DNA of 32,729 bases. Source: Achromobacter dolens. GTDB taxonomy: Bacteria > Pseudomonadota > Gammaproteobacteria > Burkholderiales > Burkholderiaceae_B. Both the position numbers and the translations under genes were made by a program. Positions within the stretch are counted from its first letter, which is position 1; each line of letters begins with the position of its first letter. Below the pieces are notes generated by a model that saw only the letters and a program-made list of their open reading frames with translations, made no database searches and was not told the DNA's origin. This document shows positions 24,052 through 32,729 of this stretch, piece by piece. Location of the stretch: the NCBI RefSeq assembly GCF_902859745.1, contig NZ_CADIJW010000058.1, forward strand, positions 1-32,729, read 5' to 3'.

Positions 24052-25658
24052 TTGATTCCACCCCCCGTCACGCCGCCCAAGGCGGCGCCACCGCGCAGGA
24101 AGACCCGCATCCAAGAGCGCTCTCGCTGTCCAACCTGGTCCTGTTGGCCGCACTGAGCGTGTTTGGCGCGGTGATCGGCATCCAGTTGATCGTGACCCTG
24201 GGCGTGACGCCCAACACCTCCATCATCGGCGCGCTGGTGGCGATGATCCTGGCCCGCGTGCCGATGCGCCTGCTGCGCTCCTACCGCTCGGTCCACACGC
24301 AGAACCTGGCGCAGACCGCCATCTCCTCGGCCACCTTCGGCGCGGCCAACAGTCTGCTGCTGCCGCTGGCCATTCCCTATCTGCTGGGCCGCCCCGACAT
24401 GGTGCTGCCGATGTTCCTGGGCGTGGGGCTGGCGATGCTGCTGGACGCCTACATGCTGTATCGCCTGTTCGGCAGTTCGGTGTTCCCGGCCACCGGCGCC
24501 TGGCCGCCCGGGGTGGCCGCGGCCGAAGCCATCAAGGCCGGCGACCAGGGCGGCACGCAGGCCAAGCTGCTGGGCCTGGGCATCGTGGTGGGCGCGGTGG
24601 GCTCGTGGTTCAAGATCCCGATGTCGGCGTTCGGCGTGGCCTTCATCGGCAACATCTGGGCGCTCGGCATGTTCGGCCTGGGCCTGCTGCTGCGCGGCTA
24701 TTCCGAGCCGCTGTTCGGCATGGACATCAACAAGCAGTACATCCCGCACGGGGTGATGATCGGCGCCGGGCTGGTGGCGCTGATCCAGGTGGCGATGGTC
24801 ATGCGCGGCAAGGCCGGCCCCAAGGCCAGCGGCCCGGCCGGTCCCAGCGTCGGCAGCAGCCTGCGCCTGGGCGGGGTGGGGTACATCCTGCTGTCCGCCG
24901 GCATTTCGCTGCTGGCCGGGCTGTATGCCGACATGCCGCTGCCGATGCTGCTGGGCTTCATCCTTTATGCCGCCTTCGCCGCGCTGGTGCACGAGCTCAT
25001 CGTCGGCATCGCCGCCATGCACTCGGGCTGGTTCCCGGCGTTCGCGGTGGCGCTCATCACCTTGCTGCTGGGCCTGTTGATCGGCTTTCCGCCGCATGCG
25101 CTGGCGATCCTGTGCGGTTTCTCGGTGGCGACCGGCCCGGCCTTCGCGGACATGGGCTACGACCTCAAGGCCGGCTTCATGCTGCGCGGCAACGGCGCCG
25201 ACATGGCTCTCGAACTGGAAGGCCGCAAGCAGCAGTTGATTGCCGCCATGCTGGCCTTCCTGATCGCGATCCCGGTGGTGTACTTCAGCTATGGCGCGCT
25301 GTTCGCGGGCGGCCAACTGCCGCCGGTGGCCAAGGTCTACGTGGCCACCATCAACGCCGGCGCCACGCCGGGCATCGCGCAGATGCTGCTGGTATGGGCC
25401 ATTCCCGGCGCCATCATCCAGTTGATCGGCGGCCCCAAGCGCCAGCTCGGCGTGTTGCTGGCCACCGGCCTGCTGATCGCCAACCCGCTGGCGGGCTGGG
25501 CCGTGGCGGCGGGTATCGCGCTGCGCCTGTTGATCGAGAAGGTCGGCGGCGAAAAGCACCGCAACCACATGGAAGTGTTTGCCGGCGGGATCATCGCGGG
25601 CGACGCCATCTTCAGCTTCTTCAGCGCCGCCATCACCTCTCATTTTGGCAAGAAGTGA
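24048..25658 (+). CDS. OPT-family transporter
   Basis: A 536-residue polytopic membrane protein of the oligopeptide transporter (OPT/YSL) family, shorter than the 600-700 residues of eukaryotic members but normal for bacterial ones. It has about 14-15 membrane segments, beginning LSNLVLLAALSVFGAVIGIQ after a hydrophilic 25-residue start. Family features visible are PNTSIIGALVAM, TQNLAQTAISSATFGAANSLL, WPPGVAAAEAIKAGDQGG, and a late GNGADMALELEGRKQQLIA. Members take up small peptides or metal chelates by proton symport. The start ATG overlaps the IclR stop. With DUF1177 and AroM downstream it forms one operon; the substrate is probably what those two proteins act on. Confidence 0.88.
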   Translation: MIDSTPRHAAQGGATAQEDPHPRALSLSNLVLLAALSVFGAVIGIQLIVTLGVTPNTSIIGALVAMILARVPMRLLRSYRSVHTQNLAQTAISSATFGAANSLLLPLAIPYLLGRPDMVLPMFLGVGLAMLLDAYMLYRLFGSSVFPATGAWPPGVAAAEAIKAGDQGGTQAKLLGLGIVVGAVGSWFKIPMSAFGVAFIGNIWALGMFGLGLLLRGYSEPLFGMDINKQYIPHGVMIGAGLVALIQVAMVMRGKAGPKASGPAGPSVGSSLRLGGVGYILLSAGISLLAGLYADMPLPMLLGFILYAAFAALVHELIVGIAAMHSGWFPAFAVALITLLLGLLIGFPPHALAILCGFSVATGPAFADMGYDLKAGFMLRGNGADMALELEGRKQQLIAAMLAFLIAIPVVYFSYGALFAGGQLPPVAKVYVATINAGATPGIAQMLLVWAIPGAIIQLIGGPKRQLGVLLATGLLIANPLAGWAVAAGIALRLLIEKVGGEKHRNHMEVFAGGIIAGDAIFSFFSAAITSHFGKK

Positions 25659-25698
25659 TTCCCCCTTCTTGCCGTCTTTGCCCGAAAGGAAATCCATC

Positions 25699-26640
25699 AT
25701 GAGTCTTTCCCAGACATTGCAGGCCTTCGAAGCGCTGGACAGCGCGCACGCGTCGGGCCACACCGTGGCCACGCTGCTCGAAGGCCATCCCGGCGTCAGC
25801 GTCACCGTCACCAAGATCACCGGCGCCAACGGTTCCACCGATTTCGTGCGCATCGTCATTCCCGGCGCCCAGGGCAAACGCGCCGGCGGGCCGGCGCCCA
25901 CGCTCGGCATCGTCGGTCGCCTGGGCGGCATCGGCGCGCGGCCGGGCCGCATTGGCCTGGTGTCCGACGGCGACGGCGCGGTCGCGGCCGTGGCCGCCGC
26001 GCTCAAGCTGGCGCACATGCAGGCGCAGGGCGACGTGCTGGCCGGCGACGTGATCATCGGCACGCACATCTGCCCGGATGCGCCGACCCGTCCGCACGAA
26101 CCGGTGGATTTCATGGATTCGCCGGTCGACATGAAGGCCATGAACGAGCAGGAACTCAGCGCCGAGATGGACGCGGTGCTGTCGATCGACACCACCAAGG
26201 GCAACCGCATCATCAACCACAAGGGCTTCGCGCTGTCGCCGACGGTCAAGCAGGGCTACATCCTGCGCATGTCGGAAGACCTGCTGCGCATCATGGAGAC
26301 GACCACCGGCCGTCCCGCCGCCACCTTCCCGATCTCGCTGCAGGACATCACGCCCTACGACAACGGCGTGTACCACGTGAACAGCATCATGCAGCCGTCG
26401 GTCGCCACCGCGGCGCCGGTGGTCGGCGTGGCCATCACCACCGAGAGCGTGGTGCCGGGCTGCGGCACGGGCGCCAGCCACGAGGTCGACATCGCGTCCG
26501 CCGCCAAGTTCGCGGTCGAAGTGGCCAAGGAATTCACCCAGGGCAAGTGCCAGTTCTTCGACCGCGACGAGTACGCGCTGCTGCTCAAGCTCTACGGTTC
26601 GCTGGCCCATCTGCAGGGCGAGCAGGTCGCCAAACACTGA
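25699..26640 (+). CDS. DUF1177 family protein
   Basis: A 313-residue soluble protein of the DUF1177 family, which as far as I know has no assigned function. Visible conserved-looking stretches are GHPGVSVTVTKITG, PTLGIVGRLGGIGARPGRIG, LVSDGDGAVAAVAAALKLAH, the metal-site-like IIGTHICPDAPTRPHEPVDF (two His, one Cys, two Asp/Glu nearby), DAVLSIDTTKGN and VVGVAITTESVVPGCGTGAS. The clustering of His, Cys and acidic residues and the Gly-rich loops suggest an enzyme, possibly metal dependent; that is inference. ATG 25699 has AAGGAAA upstream. It sits 40 bases after the transporter and 18 before AroM. Confidence 0.88.
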   Translation: MSLSQTLQAFEALDSAHASGHTVATLLEGHPGVSVTVTKITGANGSTDFVRIVIPGAQGKRAGGPAPTLGIVGRLGGIGARPGRIGLVSDGDGAVAAVAAALKLAHMQAQGDVLAGDVIIGTHICPDAPTRPHEPVDFMDSPVDMKAMNEQELSAEMDAVLSIDTTKGNRIINHKGFALSPTVKQGYILRMSEDLLRIMETTTGRPAATFPISLQDITPYDNGVYHVNSIMQPSVATAAPVVGVAITTESVVPGCGTGASHEVDIASAAKFAVEVAKEFTQGKCQFFDRDEYALLLKLYGSLAHLQGEQVAKH

Positions 26641-26658
26641 ACGCACGGGAGCGCCATC

Positions 26659-27354
26659 ATGTCCGCCACGGCCAAGCTCGGCACCATCACCATCGGCCAG
26701 GCCCCCCGGCCCGACATCACGCCGATTCTCGAACGGCACCTGCCGCCCGGCACCCCCTGCCTGCACGCGGGCCTGCTCGACGGCCTGGCGCGCGATGAGA
26801 TCGAACGGCGCTACGCGCCGCGGGCCGGCCAGGCCACGCTCATCACGCGGCTGCTGGACGGCTCTTCGGTGGTGGTGGACAAGGCCGCCATGCTGGCGCT
26901 GCTCACGCAGAGGATCGCGGCGCTGGAGGCCCAGGGCTGCGCCTTCGTGCTGGTGCTGTGCACCGGCGCGTTCGACGACCTGCGCGCCGCCAGCGCGTGG
27001 CTCATCGAGCCGGACCTGATCGTCTCGCCCACCGTCGCCGCCCTGGCGGGCGCGCGGCAGGTGGGCGTGATCGTGCCGCTGGCGTCGCAGGTGGCGTCCG
27101 AGGCGCACAAGTGGCGCGCGCTGCAACACGCGCCGCTGTGCGCTGTGGCCTCGCCCTATGCCGACGGCAGTGAGTCCCTGGCCGAGGCGGCCCGAGAACT
27201 CAAGCGGCAGGGCGCCGACCTGCTGGTGCTCGACTGCATGGGGTTCGTCGAACGCCATCGGACGGCGGCCGCGGCGGCGTCCGGCCTGCCGGTGATGCTG
27301 TCGAACGCGGTGATTGCGCGGCTGACGGCGGAGCTGCTGACACAGGCAGACTGA
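26659..27354 (+). CDS. aroM: AroM family protein (Asp/Glu racemase-like fold)
   Basis: A 231-residue protein of the AroM family, which despite its name has no established part in aromatic biosynthesis. The start LGTITIGQAPRPDITPIL is the family signature. Two cysteines fall in the places of the acid/base pair of the Asp/Glu/hydantoin racemase superfamily: C101 in LVLCTGAF and C193 in LDCMGF. It therefore could be a racemase or isomerase. ATG 26659 begins the signature. Last gene of the IclR-OPT-DUF1177-AroM operon. Confidence 0.9.
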   Translation: MSATAKLGTITIGQAPRPDITPILERHLPPGTPCLHAGLLDGLARDEIERRYAPRAGQATLITRLLDGSSVVVDKAAMLALLTQRIAALEAQGCAFVLVLCTGAFDDLRAASAWLIEPDLIVSPTVAALAGARQVGVIVPLASQVASEAHKWRALQHAPLCAVASPYADGSESLAEAARELKRQGADLLVLDCMGFVERHRTAAAAASGLPVMLSNAVIARLTAELLTQAD

Positions 27355-28231: not shown

Positions 28232-28977
28232 GCCGCGCGTCCGCCGCGCCGCCGATGCTGCTGATCCACGGCCTCATCGGCGCTTTCGATGTCGACGCGG
28301 GCCTGCCACCGCACGCCGCGCCGCCGCTGCTGGGCTACGGCGAACACCAGGCGACGCCGCCGGCGCGCATCTCGCTGCCGGCGCAGGTCGAGCACCTGCG
28401 CGCGTTCATCGACACGCATTTCGATGGCGTCGCGGTCGACCTGGTGGGGCATTCGGTCGGCGGCGCGGTGGCGATGCTGCTGGCGCAGGCCTATCCGCAG
28501 CGGGTGCGCCGCATCGTCAATGTCGAGGGCAATTTCACGCTGGCCGACGCGTTCTGGTCGGCGTCCGTGGCGCGCATGAGCGCGGGCGAGGCCGAGGCCA
28601 TGCTGGACGGCTTTCGCGCCGATCCGCTCGGCTGGCTGGGCGGCGCGGTGGCCGAGCCCCGGCCGCATTGGCGCGACACCGCCGCCCGCTGGCTCGCCCA
28701 GCAGCCGGCCTCGACGCTGCGTGCCATGGCGGCGTCGGTGGTGGCGGTGACGGGCGCGGCAGGTTACCAGGACACCTTGCGGCAGGTGTTCGCGCGCCAT
28801 CCTGTGTACCTGCTGTCGGGCGGGCGTTCGCACGCCGGCTGGAACGTGCCAGACTGGGCCTGGCGCGCCTGCGCGGGGCGGCAGGCGCTGGACGGCTGCG
28901 GCCACCTGATGATGCTGGAGCGGCCCGAGGCATTCGTGGCGGCGCTGCGCCACTGCCTGGGGCATGACGGCAATTAA
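28228..28977 (+). CDS. Alpha/beta hydrolase
   Basis: A 249-residue alpha/beta hydrolase with all parts of a catalytic triad: oxyanion region LLIHGLIGAF, nucleophile elbow GHSVGG with Ser76, and a C-terminal histidine in DGCGHLMMLERPEAFVAAL. A cap region lies at about residues 105-170 (ADAFWSASVARMSAGEAEAM). The family includes esterases, haloperoxidases and C-C hydrolases; the substrate is not evident. Start ATG 28228 overlaps the DinB-like stop by four bases. Confidence 0.9.
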   Translation: MSRASAAPPMLLIHGLIGAFDVDAGLPPHAAPPLLGYGEHQATPPARISLPAQVEHLRAFIDTHFDGVAVDLVGHSVGGAVAMLLAQAYPQRVRRIVNVEGNFTLADAFWSASVARMSAGEAEAMLDGFRADPLGWLGGAVAEPRPHWRDTAARWLAQQPASTLRAMAASVVAVTGAAGYQDTLRQVFARHPVYLLSGGRSHAGWNVPDWAWRACAGRQALDGCGHLMMLERPEAFVAALRHCLGHDGN

Positions 28978-29047
28978 AGCGGGGGCATCGGCTATATTTC
29001 CAGCGCCTCCTGTCTCTCGCGGGCCGTTGCCGGCCCCACTGAATCCC

Positions 29048-29995
29048 ATGTCCGAAAAACCCGTCGAACCGCAAGCCGTCCTCAGCCCCAACGCCCGCTA
29101 CGCGATCTTCATCGTCGCCACGCTGAACCCCGGCGCCGACAACGCCGCCGCCGTGCGCGCCTGGTGCGAAGACGTCGGCAACCTGGTGCGCACCGTCGGC
29201 ACGCGCGCGGTGGCGGCCGACCTGTCCTGTGTCTGTGGTTTCGGCTCGGCGGCCTGGGACACGCTGTTCGGCGCGCCGCGGCCCGCCGGCCTGCATCCGT
29301 TCCGCGAGATCGGCGCGGGCGAGCGCGTCGCCGTCTCGACGCCCGGCGACATCCTGCTGCACATTCGCGCCGAAGCCATGGACGCCTGTTTCGAGCTGGC
29401 CACCTTGCTGGTGGCCGCGCTGGGCTCGGCGGCCACCGTGGTCGATGAAGTGCATGGCTTCCGCTACTTCGACCGGCGCGCCATCATCGGCTTCGTCGAC
29501 GGCACCGAGAACCCGCAGGGCTTCGAGCTGCCCGGCTACACCCTGATCGGCGACGAGGACGAAGCGTTCGCCGGCGGCAGCTACGTGCTGGTGCAGAAGT
29601 ACCTGCACGACATGGCGGCCTGGGAAAAGCTGTCGACCGAACAGCAGGAACTCATCATCGGCCGCCGCAAGCTCACCAACGTCGAACTGCCCGACGACGT
29701 CAAGCCGTCGTACTCGCACAGCGCCCTGACCACCCTGGAAGAGGATGGCCAGGAGATCAAGATCCTGCGCGACAACATGCCGTTCGGCCGCGCCGGCGCT
29801 GGCGAATTTGGCACCTACTTCATCGGCTACGCGCGTTCGCCCAAGCCGATCGAACAGATGCTCGAGAACATGTTCGTCGGCCGTCCGGCCGGCAACTACG
29901 ACCGCCTGCTGGACTACAGCCGCGCCGTCACCGGCAGCCTGTTCTTCGTGCCGTCGGCCGAGCTGCTGGACGAGCTGGCCGGACGCGAAGGCTGA
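29048..29995 (+). CDS. DyP-type peroxidase (YfeX-like)
   Basis: A 315-residue heme peroxidase of the dye-decolourising family, closest in motif spacing to YfeX. The distal GFVDGTENP has catalytic Asp151, the proximal heme ligand is His224 in SYSHSAL, and the distal arginine is R241 in LRDNMPFG; the spacing between these is close to that in E. coli YfeX. GTYFIGYARSPKPIE follows. No signal peptide is present, so it acts in the cytoplasm; no encapsulin gene is nearby. ATG 29048 fits the family; the promoter may use TATATT at 28993-28998. Substrate in vivo is unsettled for this group (porphyrinogens have been proposed). Confidence 0.95.
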   Translation: MSEKPVEPQAVLSPNARYAIFIVATLNPGADNAAAVRAWCEDVGNLVRTVGTRAVAADLSCVCGFGSAAWDTLFGAPRPAGLHPFREIGAGERVAVSTPGDILLHIRAEAMDACFELATLLVAALGSAATVVDEVHGFRYFDRRAIIGFVDGTENPQGFELPGYTLIGDEDEAFAGGSYVLVQKYLHDMAAWEKLSTEQQELIIGRRKLTNVELPDDVKPSYSHSALTTLEEDGQEIKILRDNMPFGRAGAGEFGTYFIGYARSPKPIEQMLENMFVGRPAGNYDRLLDYSRAVTGSLFFVPSAELLDELAGREG

Positions 29996-30001
29996 TCGGT
30001 A

Positions 30002-30448
30002 TCAGTCGGGAATCTGCGGCTCCACCAGCCGCATCAACTGCGCCAGCGATTCCTGCCAGCCCAGGTAGCACATCTCCGGCGGAATCACCGCGGGGATGTT
30101 CTCCTGCACCACGGTCATCTCCGTGCCGCAGGAGACCTTGCGCAGGGTGATGGTGGTCTGCATCTGTCCCGGCAGGTTCGGATCGTCGAACTGGTCCGTG
30201 TAGCGGATCTTCTCGCCCGGCACCAGTTCCAGGTACTCGCCGCCGAAATCGTGGGCGTGGCCGGTGCCGAAATTGCGGAACGACATGCGGTGCCGCCCGC
30301 CCACCCGCGCGTCCAGTTCATGGACCTCGCAGGTGAAGCCGTAGGGCGGCAGCCAGCGCACGACCGCGTCGGGTTCGAGGAAGGCGCGGTAGACGCGTTC
30401 GGGAGTGGTGCGCAGGACGCGATGCAGGGTCACGGTGCCAGTCGTCAT
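30002..30448 (-). CDS. SRPBCC / AHA1-domain protein
   Basis: A 148-residue START-like (SRPBCC) protein of the AHA1 (activator of Hsp90 ATPase homologue) group. It begins HRVLRTTPERVYRAFLEPDA, with the family's WLPPYGFTCEVHELDARVGG and a MSFRNFGTGHAHDFGGEYLE strand, and ends in YLGWQESLAQLMRLVEP. These proteins have a hydrophobic cavity and bind small ligands or partner proteins; bacterial members are mostly uncharacterised. Start ATG 30448 is preceded by AGGCGGA. It converges with the DyP gene, leaving six bases between stops. Confidence 0.9.
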   Translation of the reverse strand: MTTGTVTLHRVLRTTPERVYRAFLEPDAVVRWLPPYGFTCEVHELDARVGGRHRMSFRNFGTGHAHDFGGEYLELVPGEKIRYTDQFDDPNLPGQMQTTITLRKVSCGTEMTVVQENIPAVIPPEMCYLGWQESLAQLMRLVEPQIPD

Positions 30449-30536: not shown

Positions 30537-32264
30537 CTAGGTCGTCGCCCTGTCGGCTTGCGCCGCCGTTTCCCGCAGCAGCACATCCTCATAGAAGGCG
30601 CCGATCGGCAGCGCGCGGTCGCGCACCTGGATCTCCAGCACCCAGATGCCGTCGGCGGGCACGAAATCCGCCTGCGCCAGTTGGTGCTTGCCGTAGAGCG
30701 CGTGCGGAAAATCCGCCACGCGGTGGCCCGGGATCTCGCGCACCAGTTCGCAGCCGTGCTGGCGGGCGTGCGCCTCGGCGCGGTCGTACAGGGCGGCGCC
30801 GGTCAGGCCCTGGAGCCAGTCCTCGCGGGTGCGCTCGAACACCTGGCGCGCGGCCTCGGCGCAGCGCTCATGGTCGGCGTCGGCGCCCAGCACGAAGGTG
30901 TCGCCGTAGTCGCCCTCGTAGCCGTCCCAGACCGGGCCGATGTCGACCACGAACACGTCCTCTTCCCGCAGGCGGCGCTGGAAGTCGGTGGGCTGCACCG
31001 CGGGCGACTGCGAGTCGGGGCCGAAGCGGATGTAGGTGGGGTGCCAGTTGTGCGACGAACCCATCTGGCGCAGGTGCGCGTCGGCCGCGTTGACCGCCTC
31101 GCGCGTGGTCATGCCGGGCCGCATCAGCGCGGCGATCTCGCGCACCGCGTCGCGCGAGCGGCGACGCGCCTCGAGGATGCCGTCCAGGGTGAAGTGGCTG
31201 CCGACCCGTTCCCAGGGATGGGCGGGGGCGGCCGGCGCGCCGGCGGCGGCCGCGTCCTGCGAGGGCAGGAACGCTTCCGCGTGGAAGCGGTCGCGCGCCA
31301 GTCCGGCCGCGCCCAGCCGCTCGCGCGCCGCCCGCACCATCGCCGGGTTGCCGCAGGCGTAGACCACGGTGCGGGTCCAGTCATGGTCGGCGGCGAGGGC
31401 GGCGTCCTGCACATGCCAGGGGGCGGCGGCCTGCGCGGCGGGGGGCTCCGACAGCACGGCGTGCCAGGCGAAGCCGGCGCCCTTGCCCTGCAGCGCATCG
31501 AGCAGCGGTCCCGCGTAGCAATCGTCCTCCGTCCGGCCGCCCCAGTAGAGCGTGACGCGCTTGAAGCGCGGGTCCCGCAGCGCTTGCATCAGGATCGGAT
31601 GGATGCCGGCGTAGCCGGTGCCGGTGGCCAGCAGCACCAGGTGCTCGATGTCCGCGGGCCAGCCGTCGGCCGGCCAGACGCAGGCGCCCTGCGGGCCTTC
31701 CAGGGACAGCGTATCGCCGGGCATCAGGCGCGGCAGGATGCGTTCGGTGAAGCCGCCGCCGGGCATGCGGCGGATGTGGAATTCGAGTTGCGCGGGGCCG
31801 GCGGCGGCGGGTACGTTGGCGATCGAGAAGGGGCGCTGGCTGCCGTCTTCCAGCAGGAAACGCACGTGCTGGCCGGCCTGCCAGGTGAAGGCGGCTTCGC
31901 CGCGCACCGCGATGACCAGCCGGGTGACGTCGGCCGTCAGCGGCGCGCGCGACAGCACGGTGGCCTCGCGCCGCTGCAGCGGCCGGGGCGGGGCCTGCCA
32001 ATGCGGAAACCGCAGCGTCAGGTCGCTGGCGGCGCGGCACTGGCACATCAGCAGTTCGTCGTCGGCGGTGACGTAGGAATGTTCATTGGGCGGCGCGATG
32101 CGTTCGTGGCGGCCGGCGGTGACCACCGCCCGGCAGGCGCCGCATTCGCCGCGCTGACAGGAGAAGGGCACGGCCGCGCCCTGGGCCAGCGCGGCGTCCA
32201 GGATCGAGGTGGCGCCATCGTAGGTGAATTGGCCGCTGGCGAGCGTGATGGTGTGGGTGGGCAT
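30537..32264 (-). CDS. Fusion protein: 2Fe-2S/FAD/NAD(P) reductase joined to M24 metallopeptidase
   Basis: A 575-residue single open frame with two normally separate parts. Residues 1-90 form a plant-type 2Fe-2S ferredoxin with C36, C41, C44 and C74 (CX4CX2CX29C). Residues 95-195 form an FAD domain with RPFS at 144-147, and 205-330 an NAD domain with GTGYAG at 215-220 and CGNPAM at 304-309; this order matches reductases of ring-hydroxylating and aryl monooxygenases. An Ala/Pro linker (338-350) leads to an M24 domain (355-565) with all five metal ligands at methionine-aminopeptidase-like positions: D441, D452, H514, E544, E559. No break or frameshift lies between the parts. ATG 32264 begins the ferredoxin. 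The oxygenase it would serve is not in the window. Divergent from a MocR-type gene. Confidence 0.9.
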   Translation of the reverse strand: MPTHTITLASGQFTYDGATSILDAALAQGAAVPFSCQRGECGACRAVVTAGRHERIAPPNEHSYVTADDELLMCQCRAASDLTLRFPHWQAPPRPLQRREATVLSRAPLTADVTRLVIAVRGEAAFTWQAGQHVRFLLEDGSQRPFSIANVPAAAGPAQLEFHIRRMPGGGFTERILPRLMPGDTLSLEGPQGACVWPADGWPADIEHLVLLATGTGYAGIHPILMQALRDPRFKRVTLYWGGRTEDDCYAGPLLDALQGKGAGFAWHAVLSEPPAAQAAAPWHVQDAALAADHDWTRTVVYACGNPAMVRAARERLGAAGLARDRFHAEAFLPSQDAAAAGAPAAPAHPWERVGSHFTLDGILEARRRSRDAVREIAALMRPGMTTREAVNAADAHLRQMGSSHNWHPTYIRFGPDSQSPAVQPTDFQRRLREEDVFVVDIGPVWDGYEGDYGDTFVLGADADHERCAEAARQVFERTREDWLQGLTGAALYDRAEAHARQHGCELVREIPGHRVADFPHALYGKHQLAQADFVPADGIWVLEIQVRDRALPIGAFYEDVLLRETAAQADRATT

Positions 32265-32306: not shown

Positions 32307-32360
32307 TAGAATGGCTGGGTGAAATAGGGCCATTTCCATGAATATGAGCAAGCCACTTAC
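32307..32360 (+). promoter_or_regulatory. Leader region with mini-ORF upstream of the MocR-type gene
   Basis: TAGAAT (32307-32312) is a good -10 without a clear -35. TAGGG at 32325-32329 precedes ATG 32338 by eight bases and would start an eight-residue leader peptide, MNMSKPLT, whose TGA stop (32362-32364) overlaps the regulator's ATG at 32361. ATGAGCAAGCCACT is present twice, at 32344-32357 and 32361-32374, so the leader ends with a copy of the regulator's own first codons. Confidence 0.6.
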
Positions 32361-32729
32361 ATGAGCAAGCCACTGGTGCGCGATGCCCGGCTGGAATCCA
32401 GCCTCGACCTGCCGGTCGACCCGCCGCGCGCGGGAGAATCCAAGCAGGCCTGGGTCTACCGGCAGATCCGCGAACGGATCCTGCGCGGCGTGCTGCCCTC
32501 GGGCGGGCGGCTGCCGTCCACCCGCGACCTGGCGGCGCGCTGGCACGTGGCCCGCTCCACGGTCGAGGCCGCCTACGACCAGTTGCGCGGCGAGGGCTAT
32601 ACCGCGGGCGCGGTCGGTTCCGGCACCTACGTGGCGGCGGTCATCCCGGACAATTTCTTCCGGCGCGGCCTGCCTGGCGATGACGGCGCGGCCAGCGGAC
32701 CGGGCGCGGCCAGCGGACCGGGCGCGGCC
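32361..32729 (+). CDS. MocR-type GntR-family regulator, 3' end outside window
   Basis: The first 123 codons of a GntR-family regulator. The winged helix-turn-helix is clear: KQAWVYRQIRERILRGVLPS, GGRLPSTRDLAARWHVARST, VEAAYDQLRGEGYTAGAVGS, then GTYVAAVIPD. This branch (S/TRDLA with a YDQLRGEGY helix and GSGTYV) is that of MocR regulators, which carry a PLP-dependent aminotransferase-like effector domain; that domain would lie beyond the window end, so the MocR call is inference. A linker with PGAASG repeats begins at the window edge. No ribosome-binding site directly precedes ATG 32361, which suggests coupling to the leader ORF. Likely regulator of the divergent reductase-M24 gene. Confidence 0.85.
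   Translation, partial: MSKPLVRDARLESSLDLPVDPPRAGESKQAWVYRQIRERILRGVLPSGGRLPSTRDLAARWHVARSTVEAAYDQLRGEGYTAGAVGSGTYVAAVIPDNFFRRGLPGDDGAASGPGAASGPGAA
32685..32729 (+). repeat. 18-bp tandem repeat in the MocR linker
   Basis: GGCGCGGCCAGCGGACCG is repeated perfectly at 32685-32702 and 32703-32720, and a half copy continues to the window end. It encodes a GAASGP hexapeptide repeat in the linker after the DNA-binding domain. More copies may follow outside the window. Confidence 0.9.

Follow-up and report, generated by a model that had tools for sequence, protein, structure and literature searches.

A conserved reductase-M24 fusion beside its own MocR-type regulator in Achromobacter and relatives: a possible case of a hydrolase fold supplied with electrons

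The DNA analyzed here (the window) is a 32,729-nucleotide contig of Achromobacter dolens (NZ_CADIJW010000058.1), and near its right-hand end lies a gene that joins an iron-sulfur flavoprotein reductase to an M24 metallopeptidase-type domain. The coding sequence occupies positions 30537..32264 as a single open frame of 575 aa, with the start ATG at 32264 and the stop codon at 30537-30539; it lies on the minus strand, an assignment made here and absent from the original prediction. Four Pfam domains, all matching above curated cut-offs, follow one another along the minus strand: a 2Fe-2S ferredoxin domain (Fer2, residues 16-78, 32031..32219, 4.1e-11), a flavin adenine dinucleotide (FAD)-binding domain with an R144-x-F-S motif (FAD_binding_6, residues 102-195, 31680..31961, 3.6e-08), a nicotinamide adenine dinucleotide (phosphate), or NAD(P), binding domain (NAD_binding_1, residues 211-314, 31323..31634, 2.4e-13), and an M24 pita-bread domain from residue 363 to about 565 (30570..31178), within which the Peptidase_M24 match covers residues 363-516 (1.8e-23). 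The cluster cysteines C36, C41, C44 and C74 are spaced as C-x4-C-x2-C-x29-C, and with the Fer2-FAD-NAD order and the RxFS and NAD motifs they give the reductase half the class IB (BenC-type) layout. NCBIfam matches to BenC, AntC, MmoC and other reductases are all far under cut-off (107 of 430 bits for BenC), and a weak match to type I methionyl aminopeptidase is also below cut-off. The nearest solved structures are GcoB for the reductase half (5ogx, 1.1e-25) and methionyl aminopeptidase (MetAP) for the M24 half, in which VIA-align recovers the pita-bread fold.

A scan of genome contigs confirmed 125 relatives, and the best 80 loci, 44-96% identical, were kept. These best 80 of the 125 belong to several genera of soil and water bacteria, namely Achromobacter, Variovorax, Herbaspirillum, Roseateles, Paraburkholderia, Collimonas, Comamonas and Pseudomonas, with one record labelled Pantoea. 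Because 79 of the 80 relatives read through both halves in one frame, chance, an artefactual or frameshifted join and an assembly error are ruled out, and sequence comparison confirms the fusion as a real, conserved architecture. The original prediction had proposed such an uninterrupted frame and had named a stop or frameshift between the halves, or homologues that always occur as two separate proteins, as grounds for abandoning it; the 79 one-frame relatives speak against both. The remaining relative, from Variovorax sp. E3 (L086), is a broken copy split into two overlapping open reading frames (ORFs).

Residue conservation was assessed in an alignment of 80 rows, consisting of the window and the 79 one-frame relatives, with L086 excluded. 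The four cluster cysteines are invariant in 80/80 rows, as are R144 and S147 of the FAD domain and G215-T216-G217 and C304-G305 of the NAD domain. In the M24 half, D441, D452 and H514 are invariant in all 80 rows, and E544 and E559 in 79. These five positions had been named as metal ligands from the window alone, and correctly so: they align with D97, D108, H171, E204 and E235 of E. coli MetAP, which we take to be the metal ligands of that enzyme. The expectation that the residues for cofactors and metals are retained in the two halves thus holds across these rows, and the M24 ligands would allow amide or C-N hydrolysis. The second-sphere histidines of MetAP, presumably H79 and H178, are less easily matched. 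H521 pairs with a histidine at the H178 position in one alignment, where MAFFT places a gap; at the H79 position two sequence alignments show no histidine, in a loop that aligns poorly and has the invariant H408 nearby. Omega values were 0.11-0.42 for the reductase half and 0.04-0.18 for the M24 half in ten chosen pairs, with the M24 half lower in every pair; five of the ten share the window and are not independent, and the border between the halves is approximate in the others. Within these ten pairs, the values indicate that purifying selection is acting on both halves.

Divergently oriented to the fusion is a MocR-type regulator gene (32361..32729, plus strand; Pfam GntR, 1.5e-13). The window ends where the contig ends, which truncates this gene and leaves only the N-terminal 123 aa with the GntR part; the regulator at locus L009 is also cut by a contig end. 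To describe the neighborhood, ORFs of 81 loci were clustered, with flanks of up to 8 kb. A divergent MocR gene adjoins the fusion in 80 of the 81 loci, 79 of them found by direct search and one (L029) added by tblastn; an initial count of 70/81 from ORF clustering was too low, as long mirror ORFs masked the gene. Three full-length MocR relatives scanned with Pfam contain both GntR and Aminotran_1_2, and the pyridoxal 5′-phosphate (PLP) lysine is kept in 77 of the 79 regulators that were aligned, with gaps at this position in the remaining two. Known MocR regulons (PLP, GABA, taurine, ectoine) share with the fusion locus a MocR protein with GntR and aminotransferase domains and the conserved lysine, here encoded divergently from its neighbor. 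The main text of a MocR regulon reconstruction (PMC5320631) has no words beginning with 'peptidase' or 'reductase'. At four Achromobacter loci (L019, L017, L024, L027) the regulator is tripartite, with GntR, aminotransferase-like and C-terminal AraC-type helix-turn-helix parts in one frame of 669-681 aa. The example at L019:5868-7895 (minus strand) matches Pfam HTH_18 at 1.7e-19, and its tail is matched in L017, L024 and L027.

The region between the two genes holds a conserved motif whose form is lineage-specific. In the window it reads TGGCYTG-N-ATGGCYCTA-N-GCCATT (32310..32355, minus strand) and lies in the divergent promoter region as a putative MocR operator, to which the regulator would presumably bind. 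With zero mismatches, the Achromobacter form has a single match in each of 14 of 41 genomes (25 of the genus), always 1.0-1.4 kb upstream of the fused M24 half, and a backwards-pattern control has 0 matches in all 41. Those 14 are among the 15 fusion-bearing Achromobacter genomes of the set. The Pseudomonas form, with up to 3 mismatches, has a single match in each of 9 of 79 genomes, which are the nine fusion carriers. Because the motif occurs once per genome and always at the fusion, the regulator appears, within the limits of strict patterns, to have one target. The MocR pairing pointed out in the original prediction is therefore real, and far stronger than is visible in the window. The MocR gene begins with 14 bases that are repeated just upstream of it (32344-32357 and 32361-32374), so that one motif box is doubled, and the upstream ATG in this segment (32344-32374) is out of frame. 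Paraburkholderia ginsengiterrae (L030) has the sole locus without an adjoining MocR gene; visual inspection of the 150 bases upstream of that fusion revealed no similar motif.

Listing the conserved neighbors of relatives with the same architecture, as had been suggested, singles out MocR as the only widely conserved one, the next commonest clusters occurring in at most 19 of the 81 loci. Annotation covered nine of the commonest clusters, one representative each by Pfam, and not all rarer neighbors and cytochromes P450 (P450s). The nine are a chemoreceptor, a PLD-like protein, an M20 peptidase, an alpha/beta hydrolase, a LysR regulator, a TonB receptor, an ATP-binding cassette (ABC) ATPase, a glutamate symporter and a solute-binding protein, with no oxygenase among them. 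A search with nine Rieske proteins turned up a Rieske-like ORF within the flanks at only one of the 81 loci (L055, weak, 3e-09), and a cognate oxygenase gene in the same cluster, as is characteristic of class IB reductases, was not found within these flanks. The original prediction placed a partner oxygenase either just past the right edge or elsewhere; the first placement was rejected, since the contig ends there and the flanks are nearly devoid of Rieske-like ORFs, and the second is possible, as discussed below. Within the window, the fusion is followed by an AHSA1/SRPBCC-family gene (30002-30448, minus strand, likely start 30448), and a related gene follows the fusion in five other loci (L009, L011, L012, L013, L014). 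A DyP-type peroxidase gene (28964-29995, plus strand) converges on the fusion locus, and a DUF1177 gene followed by an AroM-family gene lies at 25579-27354.

A genome was counted as fusion-bearing when an M24 match lay in a frame of at least 565 aa and was clearly closer than the stand-alone group, with the reductase half not checked in each case; the genus labels of the surveyed genome sets were inferred from named loci. On this basis the fusion is present in 21 of 37 Achromobacter genomes (the window's own and 36 others) and a stand-alone M24 relative in 13, some genomes having both. Nine of the 79 Pseudomonas genomes carry it, and among 398 genomes sampled from the phylum it appears in the window's own and in two Pseudomonas genomes. 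Among plasmids, 21 records matched the query, none with one place covering 80% of it. The stand-alone subfamily occurs in the same genera (for example G000:C50) as proteins of about 220 aa that are about 36-46% identical to the fused M24 half. A GHRxxDFPH motif is common to the fusion and nearly all of these relatives, and the fused halves differ from them by the invariants D417, R430 and L523. When 40 fused and 38 stand-alone M24 halves were placed in one tree together with MetAP, a single change split the groups in 100% of 200 bootstrap trees, and the simplest reading of these sequences would be one fusion event. Side-by-side reductase and M24 genes were considered as the ancestral state and rejected, with no reductase recognizable at E 1e-5 around the 38 stand-alone genes. 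A DJ-1/AraC-type regulator adjoins five stand-alone M24 genes (L134 scanned with Pfam), and a GGACT-family protein adjoins some (L147 scanned).

Comparison with known systems places each half on familiar ground. GcoB and BenC-type reductases, the electron donors of the P450 GcoA and of class IB Rieske dioxygenases, share the domain order, cluster cysteines and FAD and NAD motifs of the fusion; unlike them, the fusion has an extra C-terminal M24 domain and no conserved adjoining oxygenase gene. The reductase half was set aside as a clue to the partner, since the nearest non-fused relatives among those listed in the 398-genome sample are merely 31-38% identical. Of 24 loci checked among relatives of the reductase half, 22 hold no M24 gene and the other two are fusions. 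In contrast to the M24 metallopeptidases MetAP, prolidase and aminopeptidase P, the fusion lacks an N-terminal creatinase domain and is joined to a reductase. Self-sufficient oxygenases such as CYP116B and LumU likewise hold a reductase chain and a terminal metal domain in one polypeptide, but that domain is a P450, whereas the fusion ends in an M24 fold; Pfam finds M24 only, and no known oxygenase family, in this position. In LumU, which occurs naturally, a P450, a ferredoxin and a reductase form one chain (PMC12746152), and a 2025 review (PMC12445004) states that a self-sufficient Rieske oxygenase has not yet been identified. NicX, a possible case of a peptidase-like fold turned dioxygenase, was set aside as a precedent, the main text of PMC7910607 containing no words that begin with 'peptidase' or 'M29'. 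We found no description of a reductase-M24 architecture in the openly licensed literature.

Taken together, the locus looks like a self-contained two-gene unit of MocR and fusion. The sequences establish the architecture, the M24 fold, the conservation of the residues for cofactors and metals, purifying selection on both halves, the regulator next to the fusion and a motif confined to this locus. Reductases of the Fer2-FAD-NAD layout usually pass electrons one at a time to a metal center. Here the cluster never varies, the last domain of the chain holds a two-metal site, one regulator is adjacent and no second conserved component is found, so that an acceptor in cis is the simplest account. 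We tentatively favor, at well under even probability, a route in which NAD(P)H supplies electrons that reach the M24 metal site of the same chain by way of FAD and the 2Fe-2S cluster. In this scheme, whose electron path into the M24 site, metal, substrate, and MocR binding and ligand we infer, MocR would sense an amine or amino-acid-like ligand, presumably via PLP, and switch its single target gene, the fusion. NAD(P)H would then reduce the FAD, which would reduce the [2Fe-2S] cluster in single-electron steps; the cluster would pass electrons in cis to a dinuclear M24 site, probably of iron, where the substrate would be converted. A bolder version, which we consider rather unlikely, is that the M24 half is a redox enzyme driven by electrons, possibly the first oxygenase with a pita-bread fold; its D/D/H/E/E two-metal site, probably di-iron, would be reduced in cis and would activate O2 to act on the amine or amino-acid-like substrate that MocR senses.

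Several observations weigh against electrons entering the M24 site. We know of no redox-active M24 enzyme. The stand-alone relatives have the same five ligands in 18 of 18 cases, the ordinary M24 hydrolase set, and no reductase gene was found at E 1e-5 around the 38 stand-alone loci, in flanks of up to about 10 kb that are shorter at contig ends (L136, L144, L147, L209, L210, L212, L215, L219 and L221 are absent from the neighbor map, yet their ORFs were covered by this search). Because no reductase was found near these loci, the ancestral activity of the subfamily seems electron-independent; that it seems ordinarily to work without electrons is what speaks most strongly against redox chemistry in the fused M24 half. 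How the domains are arranged is not fixed by the full-length model (pLDDT 78.5, pTM 0.51). Match lists for the reductase half include NqrF, so not all relatives feed oxygenases, and two relatives on plasmids carry the annotation deoxysugar reductase. The branch dividing fused from stand-alone M24 halves has mixed support (96/45, with weak SH-aLRT), one fusion-bearing Achromobacter genome (G008) has no motif match, and the strict patterns could miss diverged sites. The remaining points concern oxygenases and favor a bifunctional catabolic enzyme, in which an oxygenase encoded elsewhere would draw its electrons from the reductase half, while the M24 half would cleave, by hydrolysis, an amide or C-N bond in a substrate or product of the same pathway, with no electron exchange between the halves. 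The M24 ligands are all intact, and the stand-alone relatives live without reductases, so that hydrolysis is the default. Rieske genes (PF00848) are present in 37 of 37 Achromobacter genomes and are commoner with the fusion, at a mean of 5.3 in the 21 genomes with it versus 4.1 in the 16 without (Mann-Whitney p 0.009, or 0.025 without two incomplete genomes, uncorrected for kinship or genome size). Moreover, five fusion-bearing Achromobacter relatives (G002, G015, G019, G024, G027) have an orthologous Rieske gene, 89-99% identical (L226:1750-2982, plus; L227:18475-19707, minus; L228, L229, L230), which shares a contig with the fusion, at a distance of 15-40 kb, in G002, G019, G024 and G027 and lies on another contig in G015. 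No reductase other than the fusion was found near these five genes in the fetched stretches, with flanks of 2-15 kb.

This gene is not a constant partner of the fusion, yet it is the best candidate for an unlinked oxygenase in that subgroup. The window's own genome has four PF00848 matches, all of other types and at most about 31% identical to it, and the five genomes are close kin, so their shared gene order is weak evidence. With the near absence of Rieske-like ORFs in the flanks and the lack of a second motif target in the 41 and 79 genomes also counting against it, we regard the bifunctional enzyme as only slightly less probable than electron transfer in cis. Two further possibilities dispense with a partner protein. 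The reductase half could directly reduce a small molecule, such as a ferric chelate, a quinone or a nitro or N-oxide compound, that the M24 half also hydrolyses; flavin reductase and FNR relatives appear in the match lists and the locus would need nothing else, but a Fer2 domain is superfluous for hydride transfer and yet its cysteines never vary in the alignment, which makes this improbable. Slightly more doubtful still is that the reductase merely keeps a redox-sensitive Fe(II) M24 hydrolase reduced, a form of self-repair under oxidizing conditions. Such a role agrees with the intact hydrolase ligands, and a reductase in cis would account for the lack of a visible partner beside the gene; however, the stand-alone relatives manage without one, and an entire NAD(P)H/FAD/2Fe-2S module would be an expensive means to this end. 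The original prediction, which envisaged the bifunctional reading, with hydrolysis coupled to electron supply for an oxygenase, is partly supported overall; its analogy with ectoine is without sequence support here.

The fusion is thus an apparently undescribed architecture beside its own regulator, built from known parts and with a realistic chance of new chemistry. Dozens of species have an intact M24 site that is fused to and co-conserved with a reductase, and beside it a dedicated regulator as the only widely conserved neighbor. This raises a testable question, namely whether evolution has made an electron-driven enzyme out of a classic hydrolase fold. In that case, further M24 proteins labelled as peptidases would merit re-examination. 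If not, the fusion would still be an apparently undescribed bifunctional enzyme, whose substrate could be traced via its MocR regulator.
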